Source: a bacterium (GTDB lineage Bacteria; Zixibacteria; MSB-5A5; GN15; FEB-12). Taken from it: a stretch of DNA of 34,570 nucleotides. The stretch lies in NCBI GenBank assembly GCA_030605565.1, contig JAUWIB010000049.1, positions 1-34,570 on the forward strand, in the 5' to 3' direction. Below, in pieces: positions 6,953-34,570 of the stretch (position 1 is its first letter; each line of letters starts with the position of its first letter). Made by a program: the position numbers and the translations under genes. A model generated the notes under the pieces. It ran no database searches and was not told the origin of the DNA. It worked only from the letters and a program-made list of their open reading frames with translations.

Positions 6953-6993
6953 AAGGATATCTTGCTGGGCGGGGGGTTGATCAAGTAGCCTTG

Positions 6994-7148
6994 AAAATGG
7001 GTTCGTTTTGGGTCCTTTCGTTGTTGCCAAACGGGATGGGTGGTGAAATGGGTTCGTTTCGGTGATAAATCACTTTTTCGCACTTCGTGCGGCCCTTTTT
7101 GTCACATTCCTATAGCTGGGTGAGCGGCGTGCAAATGGGTTCGTTTTG
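6994..7148. repeat. Three copies of the AAATGGGTTCGTTTTG motif
   Basis: Copies at 6995-7010 (exact), 7046-7059 (AAATGGGTTCGTTT, then CGG) and 7133-7148 (exact), with uneven spacing (51 and 87 bases between starts) and unrelated sequence between. A fourth copy sits at 34186-34200 in the other repeat island. Read on the - strand the core is CAAAACGAACCCATTT, which in one frame encodes K-T-N-P-F. No function recognised. Confidence 0.8.
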
Positions 7149-7246
7149 TCTGTTTTTATACTCGGATAATAGGATCGGTGGTGATGACGTGGCCGTAACG
7201 GTTTGGCGGTGACAAATGCGGCAGTCTGTTTGGTAATGGTATCCAT
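7070..7246 (-). other. Small open frame (58 codons), likely relic of a repeat-borne ORF
   Basis: ATG at 7246 on the - strand reads MDTITKQTAAFVTAKP and ends at 7070. Its first codons resemble those of the frame starting at 34308 in the other island (MTTSAKQIAAYRLLN), and the DNA between them and the GGGTTCGTTTTG motif is recognisably shared. I recall a family of small proteins beginning MTTxxKQxxANRxNA in several phyla; both frames could be decayed starts of such a gene. The composition (Arg, Lys, His rich) and lack of a good ribosome site argue against a working protein. Confidence 0.35.
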
Positions 7247-7308
7247 TGGATGATCCTTTATTGATGGTTGTGCCGTCGTATTCTGGGAGGAATTGGTAGG
7301 GTTCTTGT

Positions 7309-7332
7309 GTGGTGTACGTCCTCGTGCACCAC
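7309..7332. repeat. TCCT-loop hairpin 1
   Basis: Arms GTGGTGTACG and CGTGCACCAC pair over ten bases with one U-G pair, closing the tetraloop TCCT. One of five hairpins in the window sharing this kind of apex (others 7665, 33515, 34081, 34128). Confidence 0.7.
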
Positions 7333-7416
7333 GTGGATACAGCGATTCTGCTTTACAGCGTGGATGGGTGGGGGTAAATTAGGAGTGGGAAAGTAAGTAG
7401 TAACAATCTCTGGAAA

Positions 7417-7611
7417 CCCAGGGCAAGGAGGCTGTCTCAAAAGTCGCTTTTTCTGTCGCGTAGCGGCGGGCCTTGTGTCCGCCGGCCACACGTGGCATTC
7501 ACTGGTGGGAGACAAGCCCCCACCCTACGCGGTGTTAGAATCTGTGCACATAAACAGTGGTGAGGACGATGCATTCACAACCGAGTTATGAGACAGCCTC
7601 CAAGCCCTGGG
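7417..7611 (+). mobile_element. MITE-like element, copy A
   Basis: Terminal inverted repeats GGAGGCTGTCTCA (7427-7439) and its complement (7589-7601) are perfect over 13 bases and extend outward to 23-base arms with two mismatches (CCCAGGGC at 7417, GCCCTGGG at 7604). The interior has no reading frame but nested pairing: CGCGTAG with CTACGCG, an inner GGCGGGCC/GTCCGCC hairpin and GGTGGG/CCCACC. An inverted copy about 12 bases shorter lies at 34409-34570. Terminal repeats, small size, no transposase and at least two copies fit a non-autonomous transposable element. Confidence 0.8.
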
Positions 7612-7664
7612 CCACCCGGCCTCCCGGTTTGCCTCTTTGAAGGACGTATCCAAGGTGATCAAGG

Positions 7665-7684
7665 GGCAGACGAGGACGTCTGCC
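7665..7684. repeat. AGGA-loop hairpin 2
   Basis: Eight-base perfect arms GGCAGACG (7665-7672) and CGTCTGCC (7677-7684) around AGGA, with two further pairs possible across a bulged G. Read on the other strand the loop is TCCT, so it is the same apex as hairpin 1 with an unrelated stem. Confidence 0.7.
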
Positions 7685-7714
7685 GCCCACAGCAGTGGCG
7701 GCCTCACAACAATT

Positions 7715-10887: not shown

Positions 10888-10918
10888 CAGGCCGGATGCC
10901 GTAAGTCAGTTTCTCGTA

Positions 10919-10971
10919 GGTCGAAACCCCTGCGGTTTCGACGGTGTCACCCTGAGCGGAGTCGAAGGGTG
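10919..10971. repeat. Two adjacent repeat hairpins after pyrC
   Basis: First, GTCGAAACC (10920-10928) and GGTTTCGAC (10934-10942) pair perfectly around CCTGC, the short-loop form of the hairpin at 6909. Second, CACCCTGAGCGGAGTCGAAG (from 10948) closes with AGGGTG (10966-10971); this CACCCTGAGCGGAGTCGAAGG sequence is, from memory, a dispersed repeat in many bacterial phyla. They fill the 100-base gap between pyrC and the DegT gene. Confidence 0.75.
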
Positions 10972-32078: not shown

Positions 32079-33503
32079 GTGACTGAGCAGATGCCAAAGA
32101 AAGAGCGGATGAAAATTCCCCGGCAGACGATGCCGGAGCAGGAACCCGACGTACGCAACCACAATTTCAAAGAAGTCCCCCTGGGCCTTACCGAGGAACA
32201 GGCCGTCCTGGAGGCGAACCGTTGCATTGAGTGCAAGAAAGCGCCATGCATTCCCGGTTGTCCCGTTGAGGTCGACATCCCCGGGTTTATCCGCTTGGTC
32301 ATGGACAGAGACTACGCGGCGGCGGCGCGCAAGATCAAAGAGACCAACTCGCTTCCGGCCGTCTGTGGGCGGGTTTGTCCGCAGGAAGAACAGTGCGAGA
32401 TCGTCTGCACCCTGCACAAGAAATTCAAGCCGGTAGCTATCGGTTACCTTGAGCGTTTCGTCTCCGACTGGGAACGCGAGAATAATCTGGTCGTTCTGCC
32501 CGAGATCGCTCCGCCTACCGGGCGCAAGGTGGCCTGTGTCGGTTCCGGTCCGGCCGGTCTCACCGTTGCCGGTGATCTGGTCAAGCTCGGCCACGCTGTT
32601 ACTATCTTCGAGGCACTGCACAAACCGGGCGGCGTGCTGGTGTACGGCATCCCGGAATTTCGGCTGCCGAAACATATCGTGCAGGCCGAGTGTGACTTCC
32701 TCGCCGAGATGGGTGTGGAATTCCAAAACTCGACCGTCGTCGGAAAGATGGACACTATTGACGAATTGTTTGAGATGGGTTACGACGCCGTCTTCATAGG
32801 CACCGGCGCGGGGCTACCGAACTTCATGGGCATCCCCGGCGAGAACCTGATCGGCATCTACTCCGCCAACGAGTATCTGACGCGCTCCAATCTGATGCGC
32901 GCTTACGATTTTCCGAATAACGACACACCAATCATCATAGGCAAAAACGTGGCCGTGCTCGGCGGTGGTAACACCGCCATGGACGCCGTGCGCACGTCGC
33001 TGCGACTCGGCGCCGACAACGCCTACATTGTCTACCGTCGCAGTGAGGCGGAGATGCCGGCGCGCGCCGAGGAGATCCATCACGCCATGGACGAGGGAGT
33101 GCAATTCCACATGCTCACCACTCCGATCGAGTTCATCGGTGATGACGACAACAAGGTGAAAGCGATGGAGTGTCTGCGCATGGATCTCGGTGAGCCGGAT
33201 GCGTCCGGTCGCCGTCGCCCGGTGCCGATTGAAGGTTCCAATTTCATCATGGAGGTCGATCTTGTCGTTGTCGCCATCGGCAACTCCTCCAACCCGTTGA
33301 TTCCTCAGACCACGCCGGGTCTGGATACCAACAAATGGGGTAACATCACTGTCAATGACGATACGATGCTGACTTCGCGCAAAGGTGTCTATGCCGGTGG
33401 TGACATCGTGACCGGTGGCGCTACGGTGATTCTGGCGGCCGGCGCCGGCAAGAAAGCCGCCCGCGCCATCCACAAGTACCTCATGGAGGAAGTGGAGAAG
33501 TAG
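32079..33503 (+). CDS. NfnB-type NADPH-binding iron-sulfur flavoprotein (glutamate synthase small-subunit fold)
   Basis: A 474-residue protein with two [4Fe-4S] sites built from C49, C52, C57, C61 (RCIECKKAPCIPGCPVE) and C96, C100, C106, C110 (CGRVCPQEEQCEIVC), an FAD Rossmann motif VGSGPAGLTVAGDLVKLG (154-171), an NADPH Rossmann motif LGGGNTAMDAVRTSLRLG, and a C-terminal GVYAGGDIVTGGATVILAAG. GTG start at 32079 is six bases from GGAG (32069-32072). No large glutamate synthase subunit is adjacent; the partner is the NfnA-like gene, so an NfnAB or SudAB complex is the better reading than glutamate synthase. Cytoplasmic. Confidence 0.9.
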   Translation: MTEQMPKKERMKIPRQTMPEQEPDVRNHNFKEVPLGLTEEQAVLEANRCIECKKAPCIPGCPVEVDIPGFIRLVMDRDYAAAARKIKETNSLPAVCGRVCPQEEQCEIVCTLHKKFKPVAIGYLERFVSDWERENNLVVLPEIAPPTGRKVACVGSGPAGLTVAGDLVKLGHAVTIFEALHKPGGVLVYGIPEFRLPKHIVQAECDFLAEMGVEFQNSTVVGKMDTIDELFEMGYDAVFIGTGAGLPNFMGIPGENLIGIYSANEYLTRSNLMRAYDFPNNDTPIIIGKNVAVLGGGNTAMDAVRTSLRLGADNAYIVYRRSEAEMPARAEEIHHAMDEGVQFHMLTTPIEFIGDDDNKVKAMECLRMDLGEPDASGRRRPVPIEGSNFIMEVDLVVVAIGNSSNPLIPQTTPGLDTNKWGNITVNDDTMLTSRKGVYAGGDIVTGGATVILAAGAGKKAARAIHKYLMEEVEK

Positions 33504-33511
33504 CGTGCTCC

Positions 33512-33572
33512 GTGGGCGGTGTATGTCCACATGCGCCGCCATGCAACCCGGCTTGACCGAGCGCGGGGACGA
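33512..33572. repeat. Direct repeat copy 1 with TCCA-loop hairpin
   Basis: Bases 33512-33559 are identical over 48 bases to 34078-34125. Within them GGCGGTGTATG (33515-33525) pairs with CATGCGCCGCC (33530-33540) around TCCA, with two U-G pairs. The match resumes at 33560-33572 (AGCGCGGGGAC) with 34150 onward. It precedes the cysteine-rich gene. Confidence 0.9.
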
Positions 33573-33595
33573 CATTTGACAAAGGAAGAGAAACG

Positions 33596-34027
33596 ATGGT
33601 GAAGAAAACCGGCAAGAAGCGCAGTAGCACAAAACGCCGATGCGGTCTCTGTGGCAAGACCACCAATCTGACCAGGACCGATTGCTGCGGCAACTGGATT
33701 TGCGATGACGAGGACAAGTACAAAGCGTTCTCTTATGCTCGAAACAGTTGCTCCCGCAACCACCGTCGACTCACACTGTGTGCTTACCACCATATGGAAG
33801 AGCATGAAGGTCGGTGGCAGGATTGCGAACTTTGTCGTGATGGGTTTGAGACGGAAATGTACGTGTGGTATGGAACGAACGAATACAACTTTGAGAAGCT
33901 TGAGAACCCCCCGTCATTCGAACCTACCCGCTGTGCGGACTGTGGCAAGATTATCCACCTTGGCGCCGATGGCTACTCGATGCAGGGCGGCAAGTACTGG
34001 TGCGAAGCCTGTTCTCGATACACGTAG
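33596..34027 (+). CDS. Cysteine-rich zinc-binding protein of unknown function
   Basis: A 143-residue protein, basic at the N-terminus (VKKTGKKRSSTKRR), with many metal-type cysteines: C16-C19 (CGLC), C30-C31 (DCCGNWICDDED, also C36), C52, C62 with H65-H66 (LCAYHHMEEH), C77-C80 (CELC), C113-C116 (CADC) and C136-C139 (CEAC). The last two pairs form one rubredoxin-like ribbon. The block NLTRTDCCGNWICDDED is very distinctive and I believe it belongs to a conserved uncharacterised family, but I cannot name it. The start has GGAAGAG upstream. It sits alone between two copies of a 48-base repeat. Confidence 0.75.
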   Translation: MVKKTGKKRSSTKRRCGLCGKTTNLTRTDCCGNWICDDEDKYKAFSYARNSCSRNHRRLTLCAYHHMEEHEGRWQDCELCRDGFETEMYVWYGTNEYNFEKLENPPSFEPTRCADCGKIIHLGADGYSMQGGKYWCEACSRYT

Positions 34028-34050
34028 TCGCGTAGATCAGCGTTCTGAGA

Positions 34051-34071
34051 TCGAAACCCGTGTGGTTTCGA
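34051..34071. repeat. GTCGAAACC-type hairpin, third copy
   Basis: TCGAAACC (34051-34058) pairs with GGTTTCGA (34064-34071) around CGTGT. Same stem as at 6909 and 10920, with another loop, and again directly after a gene (stop at 34025-34027). Confidence 0.75.
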
Positions 34072-34077
34072 CAGCGT

Positions 34078-34162
34078 GTGGGCGGTGTATGTCCACATGC
34101 GCCGCCATGCAACCCGGCTTGACCGGGCGGCAGATGTGGATATCTGCCGAGCACGGGGAACG
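34078..34162. repeat. Direct repeat copy 2 with two hairpins
   Basis: Same 48 bases as at 33512, followed by a 24-base insertion (34126-34149) relative to copy 1. The insertion holds the arms CGGCAGATG (34128-34136) and TATCTGCCG (34141-34149) around TGGA. After it the match to copy 1 resumes (AGCACGGGGAA). Here the CCCGG/CCGGG stem around CTTGA is intact, while copy 1 has CCGAG. Confidence 0.85.
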
Positions 34163-34185
34163 CCCGGGCCACCCAGCGGCGTGGG

Positions 34186-34330
34186 AATGGGTTCGTTTTG
34201 TGGAATTTCATCTTCCATTAATAACATCGGTGGTGATTCCGTGGCCTGCATTAGTTGGAGGTGATTCAGGAGCCGGTAGGCGGCGATCTGTTTTGCGCTG
34301 GTGGTCATAGGGCTTGTCCTTCAATGATCA
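34186..34330. repeat. GGGTTCGTTTTG motif plus about 120 bases shared with 7133-7264
   Basis: AATGGGTTCGTTTTG at 34186-34200 is followed, exactly 25 bases later as at 7148, by ATCGGTGGTGAT (34226-34237; 7174-7185), then CGTGGCC, TTGG-GGTGA and TCCTT-A-TGA in the same order. The - strand frame starting at 34308 (MTTSAKQIAAYRLLN) lies in this block and parallels the one at 7246. Diverged copies of one element. Confidence 0.7.
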
Positions 34331-34408: not shown

Positions 34409-34570
34409 GAAACTGTCTCAAAACTCGGTCGTGAATGCATTGTCGTCACCACTGTTTGTGTGCTCAGATTCCAACACCGCGTAGGGTGGGGGCTTGTCTC
34501 CCACCTCGATTCCGGCGGACACAAGGCCCGCCGCTACGCGATAGAAAAAGCGGCTTTTGAGACTGCCTCT
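34409..34570 (-). mobile_element. MITE-like element, copy B (inverted, reaches window end)
   Basis: Inverted relative to copy A at 7417-7611. Its ends are GAAACTGTCTCA (34409-34420) and TGAGACTGCCTCT (34558-34570), diverged from copy A's GGAGGCTGTCTCA. The interior matches copy A except for about 12 missing bases near 34508; the pairing segments CGCGTAG, GGTGGG and GGCGGAC are kept. The last base of the window may cut its outer end. Confidence 0.8.

Follow-up and report, generated by a model that had tools for sequence, protein, structure and literature searches.

Genes for REP-associated tyrosine transposases (RAYTs) with inverted REP flanks have already been described, as have the possession of a separate REP family by each RAYT, compensated palindromes, and heterodimers, all according to the text of earlier papers (PMC2817692, PMC3733652, PMC6006769). 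CGTC repeats were reported without an associated transposase in the text of PMC3733652, and passages of PMC8266576 demonstrate loop-dependent activity for two group 3 RAYTs, which makes the reading of a tag and a loop proposed below plausible. A published automatic REP search demanded a GT[AG]G tag (text of PMC6006769), and about half of the GTGN-tagged copies described here would therefore escape that search. A full-text literature search on Zixibacteria with palindromic repeats returned no paper about such repeats, judged by titles and the beginnings of abstracts. The present study concerns a family of hairpins found in a 34,570-nt stretch of a Zixibacteria genome (the whole stretch is hereafter called the window), which very probably are REP elements, mostly REPINs (BIME-like head-to-head dimers), that are non-autonomous and cognate to a RAYT (TnpAREP-type HUH/Y1) encoded on contig C93 of this genome (G000:C93:4406-4927, minus strand).

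Results

The first-pass annotation had reported five hairpins, at 7309, 7665, 33515, 34081, and 34128, and all were present as described in the sequence and in a hairpin scan (Table 1). On the tagged strand, each of the five has GTG and two further bases ahead of a left arm of 9 nt, then TCCN and a right arm; the GTG tag, the inverted pairing, and the decay of the 34128 copy had been missed, as had the fact that the AGGA and TGGA copies are the same element read from the minus strand. The 34081 hairpin had been counted as a repeat of 33515, leaving four independent copies, and 33512-33563 and 34078-34129 are indeed 98% identical over 52 nt. Hairpin number in the window alone was unremarkable, with seven having stems of at least 10 bp versus one to seven in shuffled sequence; thus, a genome-wide test was needed, and what matters is the shared apex.

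Table 1 Hairpins of the family in the window, with their evidence and layout
Feature	Position	Strand	Evidence	Layout
REP hairpin, "GTA" type	7305..7333	+	sequence, hairpin scan, register shared with 200 other copies	tag GTG 7305-7307; loop TCCT 7319-7322; arms 7308-7318 and 7323-7333, stem GGTGTACG/CGTGCACC; without its usual partner hairpin
Putative eroded partner hairpin	7608..7634	+	loop spacing to next element, sequence; by comparison	TCCC loop 7622-7625 and right arm GGTTTGCC still recognisable; tag and left arm decayed
REP hairpin, "AGA" type	7662..7690	-	sequence, hairpin scan, covariance-model match (G000:C116:7661-7690:-)	minus strand GTGGG CGGCAGACG TCCT CGTCTGCCC; tag 7690-7688
REP hairpin	33512..33541	+	sequence, repeat comparison, covariance-model match	GTGGG CGGTGTATG TCCA CATGCGCCG; directly after gene ending 33503; "GTA" type
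REP hairpin, twin of 33512, forming left half of REPIN	34078..34107	+	sequence, repeat comparison, covariance-model match, pair analysis	
REP hairpin, "AGA" type, decayed, right half of REPIN 34078-34154	34126..34154	-	sequence, hairpin scan, pair at loop distance 45, folding energy	minus strand GTGCT CGGCAGATA TCCA CATCTGCCG; loop closed by A·C mismatch (tagged strand)

Two pairs were recognised in the window. The REPIN at 34078-34154 has a loop distance of 45, and the loop of the 7662 element lies 51 nt from that of 7608-7634, which is the class spacing in ten intact pairs; the latter is probably its eroded partner. When the two copies were compared by eye, the 33512 hairpin was without the partner that its twin at 34078 possesses, and CCG repeats border the absent stretch, suggesting slippage. 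Between the two copies of the 52-nt repeat (33512-34129) lies a 143-aa cysteine-rich reading frame (33596-34027), to which nothing aligned at the same place in the relatives G045 and G047.

Other repeats occur nearby. A second family (7417-7611 and 34413-34569, with further copies on other contigs) has terminal inverted repeats GAGGCTGTCTCA...TGAGACAGCCTC and carries two head-to-head GTAG-tagged hairpins, GTAGCGGCGGGCCTTGTGTCCGCCG and GTAGGGTGGGGGCTTGTCTCCCACC. Hairpins of the GTAGGTCGAAACC...GGTTTCGAC type at 10917-10942 and 34051-34071, the latter without a clear tag, resemble the GTAG hairpin near another RAYT of this genome (C62:69) and represent one more REP family there. Copies of a dispersed repeat, AATGGGTTCGTTTTG...GATCGGTGGTGAT, at 6992-7046, 7123-7212, and 34175-34264 are 65-73% alike, with more matches in the genus.

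A covariance-model search of the genome had been proposed, and a model built from 16 seeds (150 candidates scored in the 3.39-Mb genome) yielded at least 154 matches, all full-length, the weakest among the matches listed having an E of 0.006; the pattern RYGTCCWCRY occurred 401 times genome-wide versus 169 for the reversed-pattern control. In each copy, the GTG tag is followed after two bases by a stem of 9-11 bp that is capped by a TCCN tetraloop, all in fixed register: GTG stood exactly 14 nt before the loop (chance about 1 in 64) in 180 of 205 hairpins that were picked by TCC loop and pairing only from approximately 259 kb of genome stretches around covariance-model matches. What stays constant is not just the apex noted in the first-pass annotation but the TCCN loop together with the GTG tag. 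The base after GTG was C in 49% and G in 40% of copies, giving a tag GTGN (mostly GTGC or GTGG) of which only the GTGG part fits GT[AG]G, the rest fitting neither that nor GTAG; being GTG, the tag also does not fit that of the CGTC super-family. At sites selected by the left arm only, eight or nine of nine positions were paired in 167 of 178, a fraction that is somewhat favourable because the stretches were chosen where the covariance model matched. The hairpins number more than 100 in this genome, are mostly intergenic, and are under-represented in long reading frames, with 26 of 74 cases inside frames of at least 150 aa (spurious frames included), half the random-position rate (70%). A chance origin of the family is ruled out by copy number, tag register, and the covariation reported below.

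Two further patterns were observed. In the genome stretches, the second stem pair tracks the last loop base (T-A with TCCA in 69, C-G with TCCT or TCCC in 121, few exceptions), reflecting either inherited classes or joint recognition. Short head-to-tail arrays with a 24-nt period, in which only the tag, left arm, and loop are repeated (GTGCGCGGTGGACGTCCTCGTTTC) and which end in a full hairpin, occur at L091 (~613-660) and L133 (~106-130).

Stem covariation was assessed in an alignment of 37 sequences flanking RAYT orthologs of other species (left-arm selection only) and three hand-picked hairpins of this genome, from which two of the 39 selected rows, near-copies of unpaired rows that stayed in, were omitted. 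Pairing extended to 86.5% of cells, and two-sided changes numbered 75 cells versus 26 in shuffles; the covariation score was 0.472, compared with 0.181 for shuffles, none of which (out of 500) reached it, and a maximum of 0.133 for slid alignments. Related rows inflate the shuffle tests, but the slid controls carry the same relatedness. The counts of two-sided pairs and of pair types alone were not extreme relative to shuffles (44 and 43 of 500). The covariation that had been read from five hairpins is therefore real for most of the stem, as eight of ten pairs change on both sides, but the stem is not variable throughout: the G-C pairs at columns 7-26 and 8-25 were never altered on both sides, and the A-U pair at 12-21 rarely. 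A natural double change was found at orthologous sites, the loop being closed by G-C in the window (7662-7690) and by C-G in the relative G046. There were 87 G·T pairs and 18 A·C mismatches in this genome, and 19 and 6, respectively, in relatives. This excess suggests that selection acts on folding of the tagged strand, and DNA folding energies agreed for two of the three elements in which both strands were compared.

Where tagged hairpins were neighbours within 130 nt, 55 of 65 had a head-to-head arrangement, preferentially with loops 42, 51, 33, 44, or 38 nt apart. None of the 55 was a homodimer, and 44 combined a "GTA" stem with an "AGA/GGA" stem; loops matched within pairs (TCCA with TCCA, p 4e-9). 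These pairs are not independent events, since the copies belong to few inherited classes.

The first-pass annotation had proposed looking for a RAYT gene, and a PF01797 search of the genome returned five places. The gene on contig C93 exceeds the NCBIfam REP_Tyr_transpos cut-off and has five GTG/TCCN hairpins within 400 nt, on both sides and in inverted orientation. Its orthologs keep HxH at 61/63 (R at 63 in one), Y131, and N135, and the best PDB match of its profile was 4er8, E. coli TnpAREP (7.8e-11). According to the text of PMC6006769, E100, H101, and R104 of the E. coli enzyme contact the GTAG tag; in an ungapped stretch of the profile alignment to 4er8, these positions correspond to an acidic, a mostly hydrophobic, and a non-conserved residue, respectively, and may account for the GTGN tag.

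Three other RAYT genes are present in the genome, and these as well as a fragment were considered as the cognate enzyme and rejected: the C87 gene is flanked by its own palindromes, C62:69 has a GTAG hairpin nearby, C7 lacks hairpins of this kind, and C62:48428, near which a single hairpin lies, is a broken fragment. The palindromes flanking the C87 RAYT (L002:1350-2100), GTGGCCGAGTCTGAAGACTCG and GTGCCCGCTGAGTCTTCAGACTCAGCGGG, are likewise GTG-tagged.

Across the phylum, 93 of 132 genomes had a RAYT match at E up to 1e-10. GTG/TCCN hairpins lay within approximately 400 nt of the gene at 24 of 30 RAYT loci of the C93 lineage, this genome's included, with 52 hairpins near and six far, while each other loop trimer averaged 0.19 under the same filter. 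Stems differ between loci (e.g., CGGCAGATG, TGGCATACC, TGGCGTACC, CGGCAGGTG, CGGCACATG, TGGTGTACG), each paired with its own complement. On the tree, the 25 hairpin-flanked RAYTs fell in a single clade of 29 (support 96/90), requiring four changes versus 17.5 when shuffled; the four remaining members had no such hairpin in the stretch examined.

With no more than 55 candidates scored in each genome, hairpins were found in 92 of the 132. A RAYT was called close at an E of about 1e-31 or better, a threshold set by eye; the 29 genomes possessing one all had at least eight hairpins, with a median of 23, versus a median of two in the other 103, these being raw counts in which kinship is ignored. 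Six genomes carried about 50 hairpins and no close RAYT, including three that are 99-100% complete (G039, G044, G063); one reading is that the enzyme was lost or diverged after amplification. Among the RAYT loci examined outside Zixibacteria- or FCB-labelled records, there was no strict hairpin with GTG at -14 and a TCC loop. Two RAYTs outside the main clade, L225 ("bacterium Tobar14m-G34", 44% identical; ~1440-2034) and the Chloroflexi L276 (~1433-1460), have TCCT-loop hairpins with unrelated stems, GTGTCAGGCG and GTGTTGGGGTC, hinting that the TCCT loop is older than the stems.

Presence and absence were compared between relatives at five loci (the window at 33.5 kb and 7.6 kb, L098, L075, and L118, the last without detailed alignment), none of which displayed a clean insertion with an intact empty site. 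At L098, the clearest case, the whole pair is absent in G047, where the flanks are 90% and 85% identical and 36 unalignable nt stand instead; in G044, the gap is occupied by a GTAG-tagged repeat. The site following the gene that ends at 33503 holds, in G045, a paired stem of different sequence behind an unchanged tag and, in G047, a GTAG sequence; the L075 pair is conserved in two relatives. This pattern is compatible with mobility of the elements.

Discussion

The first-pass comparison with REP/BIME repeats and RAYT proteins was apt given the many copies, the stem covariation, and the hairpin-flanked RAYT gene, and we infer that the C93 RAYT recognises and moves these hairpins. The tagged strand would become single-stranded, for instance during lagging-strand synthesis, allowing GTGNN and the 9-11 bp hairpin to fold; the RAYT would then read the GTGN guide and the TCCN tetraloop, requiring a paired stem and no particular stem sequence. 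Its catalytic tyrosine would cut near the tag, and two inverted hairpins would be copied or moved as one mobile unit to other, mostly intergenic, sites.

It is quite improbable that the hairpins instead act as RNA (transcript-end stabilisers, terminators, or structured RNA), the fold being kept by selection on the transcript with no transposase involved, even though their mostly intergenic location, the known effects of other REPs on mRNA stability, and the covariation and G-U preference are as expected of a folded RNA. No T run directly follows the hairpins, as a terminator would have; T is enriched at -18 to -15, 5' of the tag, and an Rfam search of the window at the gathering score matched no family. 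Selection on a transcript also leaves unexplained the inverted heterodimers and the hairpins that flank a single RAYT clade.

That the hairpins are REP elements whose spreading enzyme is a different one or has been lost, with the C93 RAYT no more than a neighbour, we consider very improbable. The further RAYT genes of the genome and the hairpin-rich genomes that are without a close C93 match would accord with such a history, but the C87 and C62:69 genes adjoin different hairpins, C7 adjoins none, and the TCC hairpins follow the C93 clade on the tree. Vanishingly improbable are duplex binding sites for a host protein, such as palindromic operators or sites that organise the chromosome, even though the elements are short, dispersed, and palindromic: pairing is kept while stem sequence varies and G·T is in excess on just one of the strands, whereas a protein reading duplex DNA would require fixed stem bases and would not benefit from G·T.

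Returning to REP elements served by the C93 RAYT, we tentatively extend this reading, in a form that is somewhat more apt to fail than to hold: a phylum-wide RAYT lineage might read GTGN and TCCN, and most of the stem by shape only, so that stems drift, and each mobile unit might necessarily combine two different hairpins, one containing T·G and the other perfect, that mark its opposite ends. Across dozens of orthologous RAYTs, the stem changes but stays paired under a constant tag and loop, which amounts to a natural mutational scan of RAYT reading, and the roles of tag, loop, and stem in RAYT recognition become directly testable.

Relative to described REPs, as set apart by the text of the papers cited here, the new features are the GTGN tag, the TCCN loop kept phylum-wide on changing stems, and the host group, and a published family with the same loop is possible. 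IS200/IS605 ends likewise have a subterminal hairpin with a 5' guide and an HUH/Y1 transposase; the Zixibacteria system differs in its RAYT-type transposase and in hairpins that far outnumber the gene. The GTAG and CGTC super-families, in the text of PMC3733652, share the unpaired 5' tag, stems of 5-13 bp, and head-to-head, often heterodimeric, arrangement, although the Zixibacteria tag is neither GTAG nor CGTC. As in the REPINs of PMC3116915, by its text, the repeated unit is two inverted REPs, but here the two stems differ in all 55 pairs. The group 3 REPtrons of Stenotrophomonas and Marinomonas (text of PMC8266576 and PMC2817692) resemble the present family in their near-perfect stems, in loop positions that matter for cutting (PMC8266576, PMC2817692), in having one REP family per RAYT, and in compensated palindromes; they differ in their GTAG tag, other loops, and proteobacterial hosts, and those texts describe no phylum-wide TCCN loop. 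E. coli REP/BIME elements and TnpAREP (group 2 RAYT, 4er8; text of PMC8266576) are alike in their many tagged single-strand hairpins, inverted heterodimers, and an HUH/Tyr RAYT flanked by its own REPs; in E. coli, however, as that text has it, a GTAG tag goes with a stem bearing a conserved bulge, and the loop is not read, whereas the Zixibacteria tag is GTGN, the stem is without a fixed bulge, and conservation lies in the loop.
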